The translations under genes were made by a program, and so were the position numbers. A DNA stretch of 22,401 nt from a virus, in IMG/VR virus record IMGVR_UViG_3300002514_000292, positions 1 to 22,401 of that record; one strand, given 5' to 3'. How positions within the stretch are numbered: the first letter of the stretch is position 1; each line of letters opens with the position of its first letter. A model generated the notes under the pieces. The model was given only the letters and a program-made list of their open reading frames with translations, did not search any database and had not been told where the DNA came from. Shown in pieces: positions 6,001-22,401 of this stretch.

Positions 6001-9000
6001 AACTACATCTGTCGGAGCGTGTGCAAACGCAGAACCAGTATATTGTTTCTGGTAAATGACGCCATCGACGTTGTTACTATCATTTAGATTTATTGTTTTT
6101 TTATGTAAAAGAGTTTGTTGAAGATTATTTTTAAGTTGATAAGTTGTTCTATTGGCGTATGCATTTAATCTTATTAGACTGTCATCAAGATTAAAGCACC
6201 TTAAAACATTCTTGATAGATCTTTCTGTTCCTTTAGACTTAAATATATTTGTTAAGTTGTTATACAAATTCATGTAAATTAGATTTTTAGTCTCAGTTAG
6301 ATCTCCCTCAAAAGAACTAGTTAAATTTCTATTAAGAAATCTTTCCATAATCGTTGATTCAATAAATAATTCTGGCGTTGCAAGACCTAAAGATTGCGGC
6401 AAATGCTTTGCAAATGAAATTGGGCTATAGGAAGCACTAGTGTGAATATCGTGCTTAAATGTCGGAAGGGCTTCTATTTGTAAGCTTAATTTATCAAAGT
6501 ATGCCCCTACAATATGTGTTACATATCTAAGATCTGATTCAAACTCTTCGCCACCAGAATCTTCGTCTTCTTCCGCTATCCATGATGGCAACAAACTTAA
6601 AATTGATGAATTATTTTGCCTATCATACCAAGATCCGGAATTTAATAAATCGGTTTTAAGAGATACGACATCTGGGTGATTAGCTCGAACAATCGGATCC
6701 CTATATTCAGAAGTGTGTGCAGATCCGGATGCAAGCACAATAGCAGAACCGGTCGCTCTTGAATTAGTACTATAACCTGTCCATATTCCGTTGCTAACTC
6801 GGCCACTATAGTCTAAAACAATGCTGTCAGTGTCCGCATTGGTTGTTATACCCTCGTTAAATTTGTAATACAGGCCAAGAGTCGTGTTAGAAATATCTGT
6901 GTTCACACCGCCTCTTATGTGTGTAAACCAGTTTGTTCCAATTTCTCTCGGAGTCCTCGCAACTTTCCAAAATCTAAACTCATCAAGTGAGCCTGACAGC
7001 TTTCCTGCTCCCGCAGTAATGCTTAGTCCAGTAGGAGTTTTTTGAAGCGCTCCGATGCGACCCATTGCATTTTTGTCATTAAATTCGTCAAATGTATAAT
7101 GTTCGTTTTGGAAAAAGTGTGAATTATATATGGCTTTTACTTCATCTTCTGAAAGAATGGAGTTCCAAACTGCAAAATCAGCCATTAATCCTTGCCATCC
7201 TCCTGAGCCGCCGTTATTGTTTCCAATGTAACACGGATTATAAAAACTAGACAACGCTCCTGTGGGTGTGGTCTCTTCTGTGAGAGTAACGGGAATCCCG
7301 TCAATATATATTTTTGGATCGTGCGAGGCATTATTTGCGTCGTATGTAACCACAACGTGGTGCCAAGTACTAAGTTTAATTACATTATTAGCAGTCTCCC
7401 ACTCTCCATTATCCCCACTAAAATGAACATCAAAATGTAATTGTTCATCACCATCAGTATATAATTCGACTCCCGTGGATCCAAATGCAAAAATACGACC
7501 ATTGTTACCACCACCATCGCCTGATTTGTTTATCCAAACAGAAAATGACATTTGTTTATTACTAGCAGCGGAGGCTCCAATAATTGAGTTCCAAAGATTA
7601 GCAGGGCCAACGTTTACGCGCTCGTCGTCGTCATCGTCAAAAATTGATGATCTTGTTGCTTCTTGAATATATCCAGATGGATAATTTGTAGTGCTCAGAG
7701 CCGGGCGCTCGCCAGATGCATCAAAAGTTCCAGTGCGTGTTTTCCATTGTTGTGTTGCGGTTATTATACTATCTGAAATAGCGGTGCCGGCAGTATTAGA
7801 AATTGCTGTCTCGCTTACGGTTGTCGCTCTTAATGCTACTATTTCTGAAGTCGCTGTGGCTGTAACGTTTAGTGTGCCCGCTGCGTTGGCAGCATTAACT
7901 GCTGCGGCGATTTCTATAGCAAATTGATTTGCATCCGCGCCGCATATGCTATATGCTATCATGGTAGCAGTAGACGTGGATTTATTTTTGTTAATTTCAA
8001 ATTCAACAGAATTTGTTTCAACATCATAAATCTTAAGAATTTTTCCGTCTGCTTGTGCTAGAGTTTTACTTAGGGCAGTTAATACAGCCATGGGGGCTTG
8101 GCCTGCGCTGTCGTGCACGTTTTGACTTGCATAATTTTCATTAAGTCTCCACCAGCCCTGTAAATTATCTTGTGATGAATATTTCTTTAGTGTGCCCTCG
8201 CCAAACGCAGTGTGGCCTGTAAAGCTGGAAGACAAACTATACAGCGGAGCACGAGAATTTCTATCATTAAAAGCTCCATTGACATATAGCTCAGTATGTA
8301 AGCCCGATCCCGTATTAAACATTCTTACGGCGTAATGATTCCAATCTCCAAAATTGTTATGAAGAGAGGAGGTTCCCAACAAATATAAGTCTCTACCAGG
8401 AACACCGCCGGCTGTGGTTGTAGAGCTAGCTCCGTGGGCGCCAGATTGTACAGTTATCACAAACGGAGAAATTGGCTGACCCGATGCATCTCTAGAAGAT
8501 GTCAGCTCTACTAGTATTCGCCCATAATGCTCGCTATCAGTGTCTTCGTTATTCCACCAATCAAAAACCACTTGCTTTTCAGTTAAGCTTGCTAGGGGCG
8601 CTTGATATCCAGACTCTTTTGGAGCGGAGCCGCTCTTCATCCAGAATTCTACTGTCACGCCTGTATTAAAATTAGCTTTAAGGTTGGACTCTCGGGATCC
8701 AGATCCATATGTTGAAGGAAGGCCTGCGCTTGTATAAATATCAGTGTCATAAATATTAGAGTTTGTAAACCTATTGTTATAATCATTAATACTCAAACCG
8801 GACAACAGACTATTCTGTGAAGAACCAGTTCCGGGACCTCCTTTAAATGTTATGTATTCTAATGTTGCCGGAAGACCATAACCATTAGTTATGGAGCCAT
8901 CTAGTGAGCCCCAACCACCATCATCCGGATGCGCAATTGTAATAAATCCATTTGTGCGAGGATACAAATTATTAAAAATATATTTTTCAATATCTAATAA

Positions 9001-9276
9001 TTTATTTCTATACTCGTTTATCTCAGCATCTGAGCCATCATATGGATAATAATCATGAATCCATTCAATCGCAGTCCTGTAATAAAGATACGCAGAGCCA
9101 TACTTTACAAAATTTTCTGGCTTTTTAAAATTAATATGCGGCACATATGTTGATTGATGCTCAACAATTGCTTCCATATTTCTAGAGGATTCTACGTCTT
9201 TGAACGCCTCTTTTGTATTAGTTTCTGACAGATAGTTTCTACTGGTATCTGTGTCGAAAAGTTTTTTAATGCTCAT
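1..9276 (-). CDS. Giant LamG-domain virion protein, at least 3092 aa, C-terminus outside window
   Basis: One minus-strand frame is open from the ATG at 9276 to the left edge with no stop, giving at least 3092 residues; the true end is not in the window. The N-terminus (residues 50-115) has FVKYGSAYLYY, YYPYDGS and YPRTNGF, which I recall from large virion proteins of marine T4-like phages. LamG/concanavalin-A-like jelly rolls are visible at about 200-390 (TVEFWMKSG, WNHYAVRMF, LQGWWRLNEN) and 575-720 (MSFSVWINKSG, WHHVVVTYD, IYIDGIPV, AVWNSILS), with a partial one at 745-785 (GSLDEFRFWKVARTPREI). Residues 396-511 are an inserted module shared with the upstream gene. Further recognisable stretches are LPSWIAEEDED (about 900), KSKGTERSIKNVLRCF (about 1013), KRVYAGARRENITGS (about 1313), ESHVLERNKYQ (about 1586) and EVPMQGPFTDY (about 1860). 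The start overlaps the upstream gene and has only a weak purine-rich leader, so coupling is likely. Known family: LamG folds bind glycans or proteins. Inference: a fibre-like or baseplate-peripheral part that may contact the host surface. Confidence 0.88.
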   Translation of the reverse strand, partial: MSIKKLFDTDTSRNYLSETNTKEAFKDVESSRNMEAIVEHQSTYVPHINFKKPENFVKYGSAYLYYRTAIEWIHDYYPYDGSDAEINEYRNKLLDIEKYIFNNLYPRTNGFITIAHPDDGGWGSLDGSITNGYGLPATLEYITFKGGPGTGSSQNSLLSGLSINDYNNRFTNSNIYDTDIYTSAGLPSTYGSGSRESNLKANFNTGVTVEFWMKSGSAPKESGYQAPLASLTEKQVVFDWWNNEDTDSEHYGRILVELTSSRDASGQPISPFVITVQSGAHGASSTTTAGGVPGRDLYLLGTSSLHNNFGDWNHYAVRMFNTGSGLHTELYVNGAFNDRNSRAPLYSLSSSFTGHTAFGEGTLKKYSSQDNLQGWWRLNENYASQNVHDSAGQAPMAVLTALSKTLAQADGKILKIYDVETNSVEFEINKNKSTSTATMIAYSICGADANQFAIEIAAAVNAANAAGTLNVTATATSEIVALRATTVSETAISNTAGTAISDSIITATQQWKTRTGTFDASGERPALSTTNYPSGYIQEATRSSIFDDDDDERVNVGPANLWNSIIGASAASNKQMSFSVWINKSGDGGGNNGRIFAFGSTGVELYTDGDEQLHFDVHFSGDNGEWETANNVIKLSTWHHVVVTYDANNASHDPKIYIDGIPVTLTEETTPTGALSSFYNPCYIGNNNGGSGGWQGLMADFAVWNSILSEDEVKAIYNSHFFQNEHYTFDEFNDKNAMGRIGALQKTPTGLSITAGAGKLSGSLDEFRFWKVARTPREIGTNWFTHIRGGVNTDISNTTLGLYYKFNEGITTNADTDSIVLDYSGRVSNGIWTGYSTNSRATGSAIVLASGSAHTSEYRDPIVRANHPDVVSLKTDLLNSGSWYDRQNNSSILSLLPSWIAEEDEDSGGEEFESDLRYVTHIVGAYFDKLSLQIEALPTFKHDIHTSASYSPISFAKHLPQSLGLATPELFIESTIMERFLNRNLTSSFEGDLTETKNLIYMNLYNNLTNIFKSKGTERSIKNVLRCFNLDDSLIRLNAYANRTTYQLKNNLQQTLLHKKTINLNDSNNVDGVIYQKQYTGSAFAHAPTDVVAGDTIGFISGSHGAGYSALNAPKGGPGAGHYRALEDPYGFTNEASITFPTFYLGLDKFNRDEPKVSLFGLYTVATGSADIKSGAKTSWITSLGEDSGPDVANFQVFAVRDRPSSKNVKFMLSSSNEGLDGDVPFPTLTSSTFLDVYNNTNWNFSVRLTPSLTGSNKAAYIVSGSTEAFKSGFNTYDLIFRGYNNEIGTTQNSFFLTASINHETATAFLNAAKRVYAGARRENITGSVLNYSDIHINSVKYWTKYIEDGVLEQHANDFYNAGVSGSYMRTSPRDLNSFGHDNLNLNSLVLNWDFENVTGSDSNGNFFITDMSSGSAELRDNLGWAGNWAGYQHTGYGHGFKTSSVNVIEKLSVNNYKFVDPERVVSSDMIQILSEDDMVYNFEQTIPDYYFTIEKSMYNAISEEMLKFFAGVVDFNNIIGEPVNKYRHRYKSLEKLREAFFRRVGEVKNIEKFVDYYKWLDDSIMTIISQLLPASVNFENDLLNVVESHVLERNKYQTKFPTVEFKEPDIGTAMRGAHENLYSWKDGHSTIPESPRTTKENRLYWDSRAERSATEISSSRSTNSPAVNADIDAQRENFKKIIWSSPTLSQSVALHYTVGGTPYPAISFASSSFVKTYNLQMPSPVATGSTIHAGTNFTDKKNIDFTYNALRPAGPVDNDGSTFIPRNVVLGFAKDIEPLHETHQWETDKYPRILTKRYLKTLHGRNFDYDGFGYTNVRSSFVFPFNIVSSSVVSGYNKAIVDRVTGGIEIVNLHHDTYGDSFEVPMQGPFTDYAVGGHQSRHVAVNTGSDQWYNRPEAWKLLVGTIHGNPFLPDITGAIGMVAPDYPWPEANEEKWDDPAVLPYPMTASNKAWLYRDFVAKRPVNFKNIRITTGSSTLGNYTRNYEIVNVVGAYENPRAFIENQPTPPTQAFQHAATASTNVRTILDIRRESGSHFKFFDEYDTGYLSATENKSVIVSRFAAPGGIETMTKGYLDLRSSEYSVYNCLLNRNLTLIKPSQGPTGTISEVYGGAIVTSETYPSGASAMRVYDIHGKDFGLRSHLARHSARFGRDSMFVTAAGDLPGAGYDQSPSFHKINRNRLIRPEMSNDGDIYSPKSMTTATGSKYDNFYVQHPIPRSDLQYSWFTSSVIMDAQRFYGYMPVFGERAGLYYSGSSDTENSSGWVSYFDYVSASSVVPQLTQSLWQPTTKLNILTHEVLTSSTNTLGYPLTTPGTEYFNSDIVDYHQIEDFFTSSADYLNLLLTRRNGAFGWTWKRMRIQEHPILVHERLNNKVSRAEVQAGDTITKYDLPPVSVRGRPLHINFQSDSRVQTIIATHNNEKIYFNSTEFNDLFGYPDQDTVTAADQIISVIRDGPFVLNWIMYCENIFPSVKNDFISKTRQKTDYDNKFWRDSNTDRLAVGNLLSNSFGINSPAVSQSCWPLDAQIDFLTRSGPPNLGTGGDIQANIRSGSAGELQNNYFLIHSGVARSSPSVNGALKPSALYARKHCMSTPNSVVAPTGPDIPETGSVERGLEIFNSGIKTDVFGGEALWEAGDQAGIVTTALSLATSPLRVSETTPSFQASASAPWFDDYDDYNEDLLLLARGFSVVPEFRISQHVEDYVVYGLSSRNKTNTFEIPGTSINSSTGSFYVDYSNSEFLTDFLHIKNTSLLDATEIRLVCSAAIRFNPYKGFYPAQRTLDLVSQFSRSYGSGLDASVKASSTFRYSGHDLIQNQGGLLRPLMQSLCSPGILYNSIKSGLAVDYPIITDKGKLSASYYGSSDGDATSNWAITARIPPSSTNYGYHGGEFWDQRIPFEAILAPDKSLAGVQIIDVEPNPSCSLNATASMGGASDELYSMMASNFFGEVGSFFLKNNTFTSLESNVITDDLRFTSGSIYGARIKLRRSVSGSRDYRGESGSAGSNSGYGLAGANARIGSNFLESTYPVPQDPRQSPIFKETFTMYSRPSAFGPPVAGQPDGTGSINPAVIKTNPMDSFYGYNWSFTPPYTNGEAW
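7744..8091 (-). repeat. Shared ~115-aa module, copy 2 (residues 396-511 of the giant protein)
   Basis: This segment begins MAVLTALSK and ends SIITATQQW. It aligns over its whole length with residues 145-261 of the 704-aa protein: LTALSKT, NSV, STSTAT, QFA, IAAA, NAAN, TLN, AGTAI, DS and ITAT are all shared. A hand alignment gives about half of the residues identical with one single-residue gap. It sits directly after WWRLNEN...HDSAG and before GTFDASGER, the place where a LamG domain would normally run on uninterrupted, so it looks like an insertion in a loop. Confidence 0.85.
9266..9276 (-). other. 11-bp gene overlap, probable translational coupling
   Basis: The ATG of the giant gene (9276-9274) lies inside the last codons of the 704-aa gene, whose TAA is at 9268-9266. 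Only a weak AGTAGAAG-like stretch precedes the ATG. Ribosomes finishing the upstream gene probably supply much of the initiation here. Confidence 0.75.
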
Positions 9277-11380
9277 AATCTTCTACTCGAAACTTGAACG
9301 TTTGATCCTGTTCTACCCAAGTTGATAATGAATTATCATAAAAAGCAAACTTGAGAGCATACTCATAACCAGCCTCCAACAGATTCATGTCAAAATCAAA
9401 ATAATTTCCGGACACATCATATGATAGCGCTGTGGCTTGATGTTCATTCCCATAGTGCCCATCATAGCCGCCAGTGCCATATGGAACTGCCTTTAAAGAA
9501 TCTATCGTTCTATAAACTCTATAAGCCGCACTATGAATTGTTTTTGTGGGTATGTTTGTGGTCGCTTTTGTGTAGATATTCGGACTCCAGTTTCTGTCTC
9601 TTACAAATACGTTAAATCTTACCGTTTCATCTGCCTTATAATTGTTACGCAAATTAGTAATACTTAAAACATGCCGGGTCTTGCCGATAACATTCATGCT
9701 ATCTTGAAGCTTAGGCTTGATAGAGCCGGTATGAAATCTTCTTTTTAAGTGCCCATACTTGCTTGGATCTGTTCCATCCGCAAGTGTGCCGCTGGACCAA
9801 ACATCGTATAAAGTCAATATTGGATCAAAGCCTGTGACTAACTCAGATGCAGTAATGGCCAGAGAAGCTGAGTATATTCCAGTTGCTACCCAGCCGCCTG
9901 TAACAAAATAATCCAGCAGTGCGGGTGCTCTAGTTGGCTGTCTGCCGTTAGTTGAGCCAGGAGTAGACTGGCTATTCATCATAAGCATACCGCTAGAACC
10001 GGTGGGACCAGTATCATCAACATTTCCCGAAAATAGACTAACCATAATGGAGCCAGTCTTTTCAATTCCTGCAATATCTTTTAATTGGCCGCGAACATAA
10101 TTATAAAAATAGATTGTATTTAAATTATCTGCCGGAGATGCAACTGAGCTACTATAGTAAAAATCTCCACGATCATCTCTAAGAACATCTTCCCAGCGCG
10201 CCTCAATATAAGGACGCTTAAAGAAATATTGACTCTTTCTTCCAAAAAGCCTCTTAATATAATACGAAGTTGTAGAGCCACTTGGATTTTGAATAAGACC
10301 GGCGTCGTCGCCGCGGCCTGATACTCTACCTGCTAAATGATCTATGGCGCCAGAAGCTTCCTGGCTAGCCGTAAGCATAACACCAATTCCATAATTAGAA
10401 TATGTGCCAGCAATCCATTGCTCAACCCATGGAGTAATATTGACCTCTATATCTTCTGTGCCATCTGCAAGTGTTTGATAAAACATGTAAATTGGCGTAT
10501 CAACTTGCTTATTAGAGCCGCCAGAATACGTGTGATACGAGCCACCCGCTAAAAGTGTGCCGGCGATATCTGTCCAATAGCTAACTGATGCGGCGCCCCA
10601 TTGGCTGGTTGCGGTTATTACACTATCAGTAATTGCTGTACCAGCAATGTTGGTGCTTTGCTGATCTAAAGTTGCATAGTCCATTGTTAAAGTTACAACA
10701 GCATCAGATGAAGTAGCAGTAATATTTAATGTATCGGCATCGTTGGCCGCATTTATTGCGGCGGCAATATTTGTAGCGAATTGCGTTGCGTCTGAATTGG
10801 CATTTCCGAAAGCTATTTTTGTAGCAGTGGAGGTACTAATACTATTGTCTATAGTAAAAGAAACCGAATTGTTGCTAGCATCCAAAATAGTTAATACTCT
10901 TGTGCTAGCATCACCACCAGTTTTGCTTAATGCCGTAAGAGTCGCTTGAGCACCAGTATTGCCACCACTAGAGGCCGTCATCCAATTGCAGCCTTCGTTT
11001 CCAAGCGTTAAATCTGTGTAGCCTTCCATATCAAGACCAACGCCCTCTTCCCAGGATTGAGAAACCATCTGAAATGCATACTTTGCATCTTTAGGAACTG
11101 CGCGCGAGTGAGAAGCATTAAATAATCGTAAGTAAAAATTCACGCTTCCGCTTGCTGGAATTACATCATTTGTTCGATCGGTGGAGATATCTGTTATTGG
11201 AAATTTAACCAAAACACGTGATAGTTCAGCAGAACTAGTTGAGTATCTTCCATAAATTGAAAATACATCTAGAACGTCAGACGCTCCCATATTTGAACCT
11301 GTGCCTCTTATAGACAAGTCCGGACGATAAGCATTTGCAATCGTTGTGTCTGCACTTGCAGTGTATCTCTTTAAAGTCAT
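9266..11380 (-). CDS. DNRLRE-like beta-sandwich virion protein, 704 aa, with inserted module
   Basis: This is a 704-residue protein with no signal peptide or membrane segment seen. Residues 1-135 and 262-400 together resemble a DNRLRE/CBM96-type domain: ADTTIANAYRPDLSIRG near the N-terminus, SRVLVKFPI (54-62), SQSWEEGVGLD (108-118), GCNWMTASSG (130-139), then after the break ITPWVEQWIAGTYSNYGIGV (315-334). The break is the 117-residue module at 145-261 that also occurs in the downstream giant protein. The C-terminal third (565-702) has NLRNNYKADETVRFNVFVRD, SYDVSGNYFDFDM and TFKFRVED, a pattern I recall from proteins beside gp6 in marine T4-like phages, probably a beta-sandwich. The ATG shares one base with the gp6 stop and has GAGGAA 10 nt upstream. 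Its place after gp6 suggests a baseplate-associated or fibre-attachment part. The exact role is unknown, and T4 gp7, gp8 or gp10 equivalence cannot be shown by eye. Confidence 0.8.
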   Translation of the reverse strand: MTLKRYTASADTTIANAYRPDLSIRGTGSNMGASDVLDVFSIYGRYSTSSAELSRVLVKFPITDISTDRTNDVIPASGSVNFYLRLFNASHSRAVPKDAKYAFQMVSQSWEEGVGLDMEGYTDLTLGNEGCNWMTASSGGNTGAQATLTALSKTGGDASTRVLTILDASNNSVSFTIDNSISTSTATKIAFGNANSDATQFATNIAAAINAANDADTLNITATSSDAVVTLTMDYATLDQQSTNIAGTAITDSVITATSQWGAASVSYWTDIAGTLLAGGSYHTYSGGSNKQVDTPIYMFYQTLADGTEDIEVNITPWVEQWIAGTYSNYGIGVMLTASQEASGAIDHLAGRVSGRGDDAGLIQNPSGSTTSYYIKRLFGRKSQYFFKRPYIEARWEDVLRDDRGDFYYSSSVASPADNLNTIYFYNYVRGQLKDIAGIEKTGSIMVSLFSGNVDDTGPTGSSGMLMMNSQSTPGSTNGRQPTRAPALLDYFVTGGWVATGIYSASLAITASELVTGFDPILTLYDVWSSGTLADGTDPSKYGHLKRRFHTGSIKPKLQDSMNVIGKTRHVLSITNLRNNYKADETVRFNVFVRDRNWSPNIYTKATTNIPTKTIHSAAYRVYRTIDSLKAVPYGTGGYDGHYGNEHQATALSYDVSGNYFDFDMNLLEAGYEYALKFAFYDNSLSTWVEQDQTFKFRVEDYEH
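10598..10948 (-). repeat. Shared ~115-aa module, copy 1 (residues 145-261 of the 704-aa protein)
   Basis: The segment runs from QATLTALSK to VITATSQW and matches residues 396-511 of the giant protein. It is Ala/Thr-rich with alternating hydrophobic residues, and has a central STSTATKIAF and an IAAAINAAN helix-like stretch. It interrupts the DNRLRE-like domain between NWMTASSG and SYWTDIAGTLLAGG. The DNA of the two copies is recognisably similar (for example the complement of ttgcggttatta near each end), but many third positions differ, so the copies are not recent duplicates. Confidence 0.85.
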
Positions 11381-11396
11381 TACCGAACTGTTCCTC
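11378..11396 (-). promoter_or_regulatory. TAATG stop-start junction with GAGGAA ribosome binding site
   Basis: The gp6 stop TAA (11382-11380) and the next ATG (11380-11378) share one A. A GAGGAA sequence at 11396-11391 lies 10 nt upstream of the ATG, rather far for a Shine-Dalgarno sequence. The junction favours termination-reinitiation coupling between gp6 and the 704-aa protein. Confidence 0.7.
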
Positions 11397-13176
11397 GTAT
11401 ATCCACTTCTGGAAATTTAACTTGTACAATCGCATTTAAGGGCGTTGTGAGTGCTCCTCCGTCCGGAGACAAGTTCCTTTCGACATCCAAATAGGCGCCT
11501 CCATAATCGGAACCTTGCTTGACGGAAAGCTTTATTGAAATAACATCAAGCACTCCAGTGACACTAGACAATATGCTATACATTTCACTAATGTTTACTG
11601 ATTCGCCAATAAAAAATCCACCGACGTATCTTTCTTGTAATTTTGCTGTGGCGGCCGCCAAAAGTTCAAACTTATCTACCCCTATCGATGGTCTAACTAT
11701 AAAATTAATTCCGATATTGATTACATATGGATCTAAAATATCAATGGTATCGTTCATCATTCTATAATTATCTAACCAGTTTTTCAAATTATTTTTAATA
11801 GTCTGATTAGTTTTTGTAAGCTTACCAAACTTATCGTCAGAAATTACATATAAATTGAGATTTCTTTTTAGTGAGTCCGGATCTCTCTGCATTGAACATC
11901 TCTTAATCGAGCCATATTTTGCCGGCATACGATAAACGAGACTCTCGTAGTCTGATTGTGTTACTGCTCTATTCTGCGAGGGATAAGTGTCGTATATTCT
12001 TCTTTTTAGATCCGATGGTGATGCGCTTGTTGTTTTTCCGATTATAGGAGTTTCGTTAATTACTTCTAAGGACGCCCTAATAGAGGTGATTTCTGACGAC
12101 GCTAGTTTTTGTTCGTTTCTAAAGGCCATGATAGGATTAACCACTTTGTTTAACCCAGCGGTTGCTACATTGGAAGAAGATGCATTATTTGCTCTATATA
12201 TTATCGTCAATGTTGTATTTTGGGGAACAATTCCGTAGCTTATATTTTTTGATAGCCTAGTTGGGTCAAAAGTAAGATCGGAAATGTATTTTTTTCCAAA
12301 CAAATCGGCCGCAACTGACGAAGGATCCGCTATTACATCTGATTCAGTTGCGTCTCCGCTTCCAAATTGTATGGTGAGTTGATTTCGTCCATGTGATGTT
12401 GTAAACTTTCTTGAAACCAACACCGGTTTTAATATAGACGGAACATTGTCATTCATATAATTGTTATTTGGAAGCTCCCTAAAAATCATATCTTGCGAAA
12501 GATAATCCACTTCAAAGTATTCATTACCTTCAGAATCTACAATTGAGATTATTTCAGCGATGTTTTGTCCTCTAAGAGTTACCTTTTTAAATCTCTCAAA
12601 TGGGCCAATAGCAACTTGTTGTACAGAAAATTGACCAGATACTACCGAACCATAAGCCTTTATGGCATAATATGTTGGGGCGCCCGTAACATTGTTTACT
12701 CTAGCGACCACCATGGGCAAAGATGGATCGGAAAAATCAATATTTTCTGTCAAAACATATTTGTTTCCATTGTCAGCAGAAAAGGTAGATCCTCTTTTTA
12801 AAACTGGGTAATACATAGAAGCGGGCCCTAAACCAGCGCTTGACGCCGGAACAAGGACGAAAAAAGCAGCTTGGCCATAAGTCGATGCGGCGCCGGTGTT
12901 TTTATATCCTAAAATTCTCCCATGTCTGATTATATTATTCGTCTGATACGCTGTATCTAAAAATGTTTCGTTAACGTTATAATCAAGGTAAAACGATAGT
13001 TGATCTCCAACATATGCGACCGCATCAAGCATCATAGAGCCAAAAGAGCCCTCGCTAAAATCTTGAAATGAATCAGGGTACAACCTTTCAGCTATCTGCA
13101 TCAAATCATCACGGATGCTAGCAAAATCCCTATTAGTATAATTTATAGGAATCATTTTATTTTGTTCGTCAGCCAT
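11380..13176 (-). CDS. gp6: Baseplate wedge protein, T4 gp6-like (baseplate J type), 598 aa
   Basis: At 598 residues it is close to T4 gp6 (about 660). The N-terminal part carries the family signature: INYTNRDFASIRDDL (11-25), GSFGSMMLDAVAYVGDQLSF (43-62), YLDYNVNETFLDTAYQ (63-78) and RHGRILGYK (84-92). The C-terminal half has the baseplate-J-type stretch RAVTQSDYESLVYRMPAKYG (403-422), SIKRCSMQRDPDS (423-435), LNLYVISDD (440-448) and LDPYVINIGINFIV (481-494). In T4, gp6 dimers join neighbouring wedges and form the continuous ring that holds the baseplate together around the hub. It follows gp25 after 15 nt with GAGGT as ribosome binding site, as in T4 where 25 and 6 are adjacent. No key region seems missing. 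Confidence 0.94.
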   Translation of the reverse strand: MADEQNKMIPINYTNRDFASIRDDLMQIAERLYPDSFQDFSEGSFGSMMLDAVAYVGDQLSFYLDYNVNETFLDTAYQTNNIIRHGRILGYKNTGAASTYGQAAFFVLVPASSAGLGPASMYYPVLKRGSTFSADNGNKYVLTENIDFSDPSLPMVVARVNNVTGAPTYYAIKAYGSVVSGQFSVQQVAIGPFERFKKVTLRGQNIAEIISIVDSEGNEYFEVDYLSQDMIFRELPNNNYMNDNVPSILKPVLVSRKFTTSHGRNQLTIQFGSGDATESDVIADPSSVAADLFGKKYISDLTFDPTRLSKNISYGIVPQNTTLTIIYRANNASSSNVATAGLNKVVNPIMAFRNEQKLASSEITSIRASLEVINETPIIGKTTSASPSDLKRRIYDTYPSQNRAVTQSDYESLVYRMPAKYGSIKRCSMQRDPDSLKRNLNLYVISDDKFGKLTKTNQTIKNNLKNWLDNYRMMNDTIDILDPYVINIGINFIVRPSIGVDKFELLAAATAKLQERYVGGFFIGESVNISEMYSILSSVTGVLDVISIKLSVKQGSDYGGAYLDVERNLSPDGGALTTPLNAIVQVKFPEVDIRGTVR

Positions 13177-13191: not shown

Positions 13192-13560
13192 CTAAATAGT
13201 AATTTCCAATGATTCGGAAGAGTTAAGAGATGGTATTTTATATAACACTCTAATCCCTAAACTATTTCTCTCTATATTAGCGCTATCATAGAGAATATCT
13301 ATAATGCCAATAGTAGGCATATATTTTTTTATAGATGATCTCATTTTTTGGTCTATCCTCAAGAGAGTTTGTGTGCCCTCCTGTTCAAATAAAAATCTCT
13401 TAATCCCAACACCATACTCTGGAGACATTACTCGCTCACCGGGATTTGTTAAAATTAACATTTTTAAATTTTGCCTAATGAGGCTTCTAAAATCTTTGTT
13501 CATTTGAAATCCATCAATTGAGCTACGGCGTAATGGAAGGGCTATACTTAAAGAAGACAT
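13192..13560 (-). CDS. gp25: Baseplate wedge protein, gp25/GPW family, 122 aa
   Basis: The 122-residue length matches the family (T4 gp25 is about 132). The core motif is clear: LILTNPGERVMSPEYGVGI (35-53), the conserved Gly-Glu-Arg followed by a Pro-Glu-Tyr-Gly stretch, then FLFEQ (57-61) and a C-terminal beta segment GIRVLYKIP (102-110). In T4 and in contractile injection systems this protein sits at the inner wedge and starts sheath polymerisation around the tube. The gene follows the 2171-aa gene after 18 nt, has AGAGGT 6 nt before its ATG, and is followed by gp6, matching the T4 order. No lysozyme catalytic residues are expected, despite the old family name. Confidence 0.95.
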   Translation of the reverse strand: MSSLSIALPLRRSSIDGFQMNKDFRSLIRQNLKMLILTNPGERVMSPEYGVGIKRFLFEQEGTQTLLRIDQKMRSSIKKYMPTIGIIDILYDSANIERNSLGIRVLYKIPSLNSSESLEITI

Positions 13561-21132: not shown

Positions 21133-21447
21133 TTAACCTCCATCATAGCTCCAATGCCATGGCTCACCGCCAGTTGCTAAAGGATCGGGCGGATCAGAGC
21201 GCGATCTTGTCCAGTTTTTTATATTACCATAGGCAGCTTTGTTGTGCACATTTTCCAATAGCCATTTGTATACATCACTCTCTCGGCAATCGGCCGTCGC
21301 AGTGTTTTGGCAACATTTTTGCCCACTTAAACATCGCTTTTTAGAGAATTTACTATTAACATGTAGGGAACCTGGAAGAGGAGCAGAAAGGACTGCTTCT
21401 TCTTTAAGTACCATAGTTAATTGTGATTCTGTCAATAATACCTTCAT
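21133..21447 (-). CDS. Small M15-like (VanY/D-Ala-D-Ala carboxypeptidase-type) protein, 104 aa
   Basis: The C-terminus GEPWHWSYDGG (94-104) matches the end of M15 peptidases of the VanY type, where the Glu is catalytic and the His binds zinc. The preceding YKWLLENVHNKAAYG (60-74) fits the WL..N...YG helix before it. The usual HxxGxAxD zinc motif is not intact: the aligned positions read C46-Q-N-T-A-T-A-D53, so the Asp is kept and Cys replaces His. The protein is shorter than usual M15 domains and is Cys-rich (C39, C45, C46, C54). Its N-terminus MKVLLTESQL resembles starts of many small marine phage proteins. It begins immediately after the stop of the gp5-like gene, with AAAGG as ribosome binding site. 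It may be an active cell-wall peptidase with an altered metal site, or a decayed one; an unrelated structural protein is also possible. Confidence 0.55.
   Translation of the reverse strand: MKVLLTESQLTMVLKEEAVLSAPLPGSLHVNSKFSKKRCLSGQKCCQNTATADCRESDVYKWLLENVHNKAAYGNIKNWTRSRSDPPDPLATGGEPWHWSYDGG
21136..21141 (-). promoter_or_regulatory. Strong Shine-Dalgarno of the 341-aa gene inside the upstream Gly-Gly codons
   Basis: GGAGGT is both the last two codons (Gly-Gly) of the 104-aa gene and a perfect Shine-Dalgarno core 5 nt before the ATG at 21130. The stop TAA lies between them. Confidence 0.85.
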
Positions 21448-22401
21448 TTAACAACCTTTATATACGTATCCACCTGAACTGGCAGTAAGGGGATAACTTT
21501 TATTTATATGATTACATCTACTTCTACATGGACTTACAGCAGAACATTCTCCTTCACAATATGCTCTTAACATCTGTTCTGCGTCCCAGTTGTATTTTGC
21601 TCCCATCTCATGTAAACATTTAGGATAAGAATTTAAATAAAACATTCCTACCGCGTATTCTCTAGGCGTGTTCCAACCACCCTTATTTATGGGTGTTACC
21701 AATCCTTCTTTAAACTTTCTTGATGCCGCTCTATTCTGTACACTTTCACTTTCGGAAGAATTTAAGAAACTCAACATTCCCTGTTTCCAAGAAGAATCTT
21801 TCATTTCATCACCACTATATGATTTAATACTATCCACCATTTCATTCTCTGACTTACCAAAATATTTCTCAGTGTCCATTTCCTTATAAAGTTTTTTAAG
21901 TCCGCTTTTTGTAAAATGTAAAATTCCTACCGCTGTATCTCCCTGACTATCTAAAAATAAATCATTATAGTTTTTAGACCCACCAGCAGAAATAGTACTA
22001 TTAATAATATCAATAATTAAATCATCTGATATTGGAGCTTGTTGATTAGATTTTGCACCACTTTGATAAGAACCAGTTCGTGATATGCCGCGAGAACTAC
22101 GTCGAGTGCTGGAAGCTCCAGATATATTTCGAAAAGCATTTTTTAAAGACTCACAATCTAAAGCATCACTTTCATCCGACTCAACATTGGTTCTGTTATC
22201 CTTGACGCTAACAAAGGTACCAAATTGCAAATCATATGAAAAAACATTTTCTTCTAATCGAACGTTCACAATATCTCCCACTTGTGGAAGATAATTGGTA
22301 CTTTTAGTATAATCATCGGATGATATAAAAGTTGTATGTAAAGTCACCAGTCTTCTTATTTTGGCCTTCTCTTCGGCAGTTGTTCCCCTCGCATTACAAG
22401 G
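21448..22401 (-). CDS. gp5-like baseplate hub protein with OB-fold and lysozyme-like region, N-terminus outside window
   Basis: The frame is open to the right edge (at least 317 codons), so the gene probably starts outside the window. A GTG at 22347 is possible but unlikely as start, because EEKAKIRRL before it reads as coding. LPQVGDIVNVRLEENVFSYD (about residues 38-57 from the edge) looks like the OB-fold of phage spike proteins. A Ser/Arg/Gly-rich linker (SGASSTRRSSRGISRTGS) follows. The next region, about 125-260, is lysozyme-like: SQGDTAVGILHFTKSGLKKL and a SSWKQGMLSFLNSS helix. A Glu where many lysozyme folds have an ESGG motif is not obvious here (TISAGG). The C-terminus is Cys-rich (CEGECSAVSPCRSRC, and a final Cys). 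In T4, gp5 combines an OB-fold, lysozyme and a beta-helix at the tail tip. Here the gene lies upstream of an M15-like gene and the baseplate genes. Confidence 0.6.
   Translation of the reverse strand, partial: PCNARGTTAEEKAKIRRLVTLHTTFISSDDYTKSTNYLPQVGDIVNVRLEENVFSYDLQFGTFVSVKDNRTNVESDESDALDCESLKNAFRNISGASSTRRSSRGISRTGSYQSGAKSNQQAPISDDLIIDIINSTISAGGSKNYNDLFLDSQGDTAVGILHFTKSGLKKLYKEMDTEKYFGKSENEMVDSIKSYSGDEMKDSSWKQGMLSFLNSSESESVQNRAASRKFKEGLVTPINKGGWNTPREYAVGMFYLNSYPKCLHEMGAKYNWDAEQMLRAYCEGECSAVSPCRSRCNHINKSYPLTASSGGYVYKGC
21455..21459 (-). promoter_or_regulatory. Ribosome binding site of the 104-aa gene
   Basis: AAAGG lies 7 nt before the ATG at 21447, inside the last codons of the gp5-like gene. 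Stop and start abut as TAAATG with no gap, which points to coupled translation. Confidence 0.65.

Follow-up and report, generated by a model that had tools for sequence, protein, structure and literature searches.

The window analysed here covers an entire virus record (22,401 bases), in which all long genes are on the minus strand (Table 1). These genes encode a 2171-aa protein, a gp25-like protein, a gp6-like baseplate wedge protein, a 704-aa virion protein (P0001) and a giant virion protein (P0002), the last of which adjoins the baseplate genes. Along its length, the gp6-like protein shares 26-30% of its residues with counterparts from a Microcystis phage, from Flavobacterium phages and from an uncultured phage. 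Two other ORFs on the minus strand, at 21133-21447 (104 aa) and 21448-22347 (299 aa), have no convincing family match; the 104-aa ORF shows only a weak VanY-like match (E 0.04, below the cut-off).

Table 1. Positions of the genes, domains and module copies discussed in the text
Feature	Position in window	Strand	Extent and remarks	Evidence
Giant virion protein P0002	1..9276	-	At least 3092 aa; open at contig end	
LamG1, C-terminal part	6877..7044	-	P0002 about 745-800	Alignments
Inserted LamG2 domain	7072..8166	-	P0002 about 371-735; split by copy b	Pfam Laminin_G_3
Module copy b	7744..8082	-	P0002 residues 399-511	Empty site in L012
LamG1, N-terminal part	8227..8709	-	P0002 about 190-350	Continuous Laminin_G_3 in the L081 homologue; alignments
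704-aa virion protein P0001	9266..11380	-	N-terminal DNRLRE domain, split by copy a	NF033679 on module-free homologues
Module copy a	10598..10939	-	P0001 residues 148-261; with linkers about 10583-10963, residues 140-266	AlphaFold2 model
Baseplate wedge protein (gp6-like)	11380..13176	-		PHROG 6 and 219
gp25-like baseplate wedge protein	13192..13560	-		Pfam PF04965

An earlier, sequence-only reading had claimed that the same module of about 115 aa occurs in the 704-aa protein and in the giant, with about half of the residues in agreement. Both claims held: copies a and b share 61 out of 116 residues (53%; BLASTP E-value 4e-20) and are 61% identical at the DNA level, and their BLOSUM62 local score of 271 compares with at most 80 when one copy is shuffled 1000 times. 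The module ends given in that reading, 10948 and 8091, were 9 bases too long (we found 10939 and 8082). The module is rich in A, T, N and S. A third copy was searched for in the window and is absent.

The claim that copy a splits a DNRLRE-like domain also held, because module-free homologues of P0001 match the NCBIfam family NF033679 (DNRLRE_dom; best score 35.5 bits with a cut-off of 34, two proteins being above the curated cut-off), while P0001 itself has no match to it. Out of 72 P0001-type proteins, 56 are empty at a site where the other 16 have an insert (between residues 139 and 267). The joins in the empty alleles are clean (e.g. SNWMSASNT-TYWTD in L065, compared with SNWMSGSNT-[126 residues]-SYWTD in L004). 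When the filled state is mapped on a tree of the host proteins (with the insert excluded), 11 changes are required, and well-supported branches make at least five of these unavoidable. Among close relatives the two states alternate: L004, which is filled, lies inside a clade of empty alleles, and the sisters L019 and L071 differ in their state. The inserts at the residue-139 site are of at least five sequence types (subfamilies), apparently of one superfamily. A module within a module, in the order N1-N2-C2-C1, was found in two different phages (L070:8448-9272 and L129:2671-4947).

In the giant protein, copy b was said to split a LamG-like region, and this held as well: Laminin_G_3 (Pfam) matches P0002 at residues 572-714 with an E-value of 1.4e-23, and copy b is found just before this stretch, in the N-terminal DSAG/GTF segment, which is continuous in the giant of L012 (LQGWWRLNTEQFSVNDKVPDSSVHN-RPGTF). 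What the earlier reading had missed is that the LamG domain holding copy b is itself an insertion within a further LamG domain. In most of the other giants, a single LamG domain runs unbroken here (Laminin_G_3 2.7e-12 in L081); in the window this domain (LamG1) is interrupted after LYVNG.. by LamG2, and LamG2 is in turn interrupted by the module. Since the L012 giant has LamG2 without the module, the window holds three nested levels (LamG, LamG, module). The multi-domain model of this region is poor (pLDDT 59), so the nesting is argued from the sequence and from L012, and not from the model. Both LamG2 and the module are missing from 48 out of 53 aligned giants, and in the giants of L085 and L086 another member of the module superfamily is located directly in the same LamG1 loop. 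We therefore consider this loop an insertion hot spot with four states: LamG2 plus module, LamG2 alone, a superfamily module alone, and neither. The module in LamG2 was found only in the window and in L120. The first condition that the earlier reading had set for its failure, a module at one fixed position in every homologue of both hosts, is therefore not fulfilled; the optional presence of the module in otherwise homologous virion proteins is shown by the empty and filled members of the 704-aa family and by the empty site in the L012 giant.

A search profile built from 31 modules yields 48 copies across 18 out of 36 related records, the remaining 18 having none; as a control, it has no matches in reversed or shuffled ORFs, versus 149 in the real ones. 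The subfamily found in the window occupies seven sites in four unrelated virion proteins: sites 139, 82 and 475 of the DNRLRE protein, LamG2 of the giant, two tail-sheath groups and a tail protein. Members of the superfamily as a whole sit in the giant and the DNRLRE protein, in the tail sheath (PHROG 23 and others), in a tail spike with Peptidase_S74, in a tail protein that has a weak likeness to PHROG 290, and in three unnamed families. The presence of the same domain in unrelated virion proteins is thus shown. On the giant, about 15 sites can be told apart from the flanks of the superfamily modules; at most of them the left and right coordinates abut, and the position at about residue 1178 holds a module in seven giants. 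In L091, L063 and L073, two or more ORFs take the place of a single giant gene; the second giant ORF of L091 starts just before the module at this hot-spot position (about residue 1178). In another record (L074:47-2392, minus strand), two tandem modules with 86% protein and 74% DNA identity are encoded in a gene whose product has no family match.

Outside of the related records, annotated phage genomes searched with the module and with P0001 gave no match to either, and one module, used to scan the genomes of bacteria and archaea, brought up no relative there. No family of Pfam, PHROG or NCBIfam covers the module (single weak matches were treated as chance). We found no paper on the spread of the module domain, most subscription journals being outside our search.

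The two copies in the window have different histories. Copy a is 84% identical to the insert at the same site in L003, and the host proteins are 82% identical; it is inherited at its site along with the host gene. Copy b, which is a long branch in the module tree, is nearest to the copy in LamG2 of L120 (70%), then to a copy at the DNRLRE site of L004 (60%), and only then to copy a (53%). We considered a recent within-genome duplication giving rise to copies a and b, and rejected it, as the two are not each other's closest kin. A further comparison concerns the neighbouring genes of L120: the DNRLRE proteins of L120 and L003 are 99.4% identical, the N-termini of the adjoining giants (L120 and L081, the latter from the same record as L003) are only 64% identical, and the cassette of LamG2 plus module present in the giant of L120 is missing from L081. 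This marks a sharp recombination joint between the neighbouring DNRLRE and giant genes.

Across the collection, in every one of the 28 pairs compared, identity is higher between the modules than between their hosts. The modules of L006 and L007 are sisters (support 100/97), and their host proteins reject this pairing (p-AU 0.021), with the caveat that the pair was picked after seeing the tree. The nearest relative of a module is found in the same genome for 17 out of 55 modules (permutation mean 2.6, maximum 12); for example, in L014 the DNRLRE insert and one of the modules of the giant are 86% identical (87% for the DNA). In the six pairs that we read, DNA homology does not reach further than about five codons from the module ends. 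The dN/dS ratios of the module are between 0.06 and 0.29, indicating purifying selection on the copies. It is possible that the within-genome likeness comes in part from gene conversion between resident modules, and gain versus loss is not settled at single sites.

The second condition that the sequence-only reading had set for its failure, a module integral to each host domain, appears not to be fulfilled either, as the module is predicted to fold alone: an AlphaFold2 model based on the 31-row alignment has a pLDDT of 81.9 and a pTM of 0.81, and the predicted structure consists of strands plus a single helix of 17 residues, both termini being strands. The best matches among solved structures are the sheaths of A-1(L) (Z 9.0) and Milano (Z 8.5), with the phiTE and Sf14 sheaths within 8.0-9.0, together with the tail protein of P-SCSP1u (8.3), FliC (8.2), the Kp9 tail (7.7), T4 gp11 (7.5) and FliD. 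Six phage tail-sheath entries, the podophage tail protein and FliC match at Z 9.0-8.0 (rmsd 2.7-4.3 over 86-107 residues), and domains of phage tails and outer domains of flagella make up most of the list. Among predicted viral structures, six match the module below an E-value of 0.001. These comparisons rest on Z values of 7-9, a range which, as the tool warns, may reflect a merely common arrangement; they are at the edge of what it counts as telling. A profile search of PDB sequences with the module gave nothing significant, i.e. there is no sequence link to a solved structure. It is likely, subject to the Z caveat and at the level of a predicted fold only, that the module shares its fold with sheath insertion domains and flagellin D2-like domains; the fold, which had been called unknown in the sequence-only reading, is refined accordingly to one resembling tail-sheath insertion domains and the outer domains of flagellin and FliD. 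Immunoglobulin (Ig) light chains match the model at a Z of only about 2.5 (the model has the 17-residue helix among its strands), and the Pfam Ig families have no match to the module.

Three known systems invite comparison. For the sheath insertion domain (InD) of the Vibrio phage XM1, likeness to FliD has been noted and acquisition by gene exchange proposed (PMC10457771), and additional sheath domains in general have been discussed (PMC9230969). The InD (in XM1, with equivalents in A-1(L), Milano, phiTE and E217) is like the module in its similar predicted fold (Z 5-9) and in being inserted in a virion surface protein; however, the XM1 InD was described in one gene of one phage, whereas the module is found in many unrelated genes and sites and is copied within genomes, and there is no sequence match between the module and a solved structure. 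The outer domains (D2/D3) of FliC and FliD have a similar fold (Z 5-8) and are located in an outer part of a surface filament protein, but they are cellular, reside in one gene family and have no sequence match to the module. Ig-like domains of phage virion proteins have reportedly been described by Fraser et al. 2006 (referenced in PMC10684548); like the module they are optional, promiscuous and common to unrelated structural genes, but they are beta sandwiches, whereas the module is predicted to be mixed alpha/beta with one long helix, and the module, unlike them, sits inside loops of other domains.

Taken as a whole, the data make it likely that a domain of about 115 residues has repeatedly entered loops of many different virion proteins in an uncultured group of tailed phages, and that the module is a self-contained small alpha/beta domain acting as a mobile decoration unit of these proteins. 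The claim that the module moves between structural genes is supported by the empty and filled sites and by the spread. Established here are recurrent presence and absence at the same sites, one subfamily in unrelated genes, sharp DNA ends, purifying selection and nesting; the transfer itself was not seen, and no transfer machinery for the module was found. We propose that the module enters loops of unrelated structural proteins in frame, its ends being the first and last strands of the fold, and that it would spread through recombination when phages co-infect, as well as through copying inside one genome. Selection would retain only in-frame insertions in tolerant, exposed loops, and once two sites hold modules, the modules themselves may serve as homology for further exchange. 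What the module does is inferred from fold likeness and the classes of host proteins: it may form knobs on the virion surface, like those that this fold makes on contractile sheaths and on the filaments of flagella (we have no exposure data), and may add weak adhesion to cell-surface polymers, or bulk or stability, rather than catalysis (we have no binding data). Surface exposure and dispensability for assembly are likewise inferred, only from optional presence and from the fold relatives.

The rival that survives best, although we consider it unlikely, is that modules are ancient at every site and vary only by loss, with gene conversion producing the within-genome likeness. Gene conversion would also yield nearest neighbours in the same genome and homology confined to the module, and some site groups are monophyletic in the module tree. 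However, this rival supposes that an ancestor already carried modules in many genes, at more than 20 sites, among them those within LamG2 and within another module, and it is opposed by the excess of module over host identity in every pair, by the disagreement between the host and module trees for L006 and L007, and by the number of subfamilies at one site. A second rival, that the insert is a selfish element at the DNA level (an intein, a homing element or a transposon relic), draws on the sharp in-frame boundaries and the repeated insertion at hot spots, but is very unlikely: reading by eye the joins of filled versus empty alleles and the copy boundaries showed no evident repeat or target duplication, the module has no match to any endonuclease or splicing family, and it is predicted to fold as a stable domain and is under purifying selection. 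Low-complexity convergence of Ala/Thr/Asn-rich beta proteins, suggested by the composition, is refuted by the alignment score against shuffled copies and by the lack of HMM matches in reversed or shuffled ORFs.

Within the mobile-decoration reading, a bolder version can be put forward, which we hold to be less likely than not: that one fold serves as a genome-wide, self-nesting decoration unit, copying itself among most large virion genes faster than these diverge, and giving a combinatorial coat that is changed by domain moves and not by point mutation or diversity-generating retroelements. Independently of this version, the collection is a well-sampled natural experiment on the entry of domains into folded proteins, with many sites, empty and filled alleles and nesting to three levels, and about 20 positions in virion proteins that tolerate an insert of 115 residues are now available. 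One recurring fold ties together separate structural reports on sheath insertion domains, podophage tail inserts, T4 gp11 and flagellin outer domains; phages seem to decorate their particles by moving one fold around.
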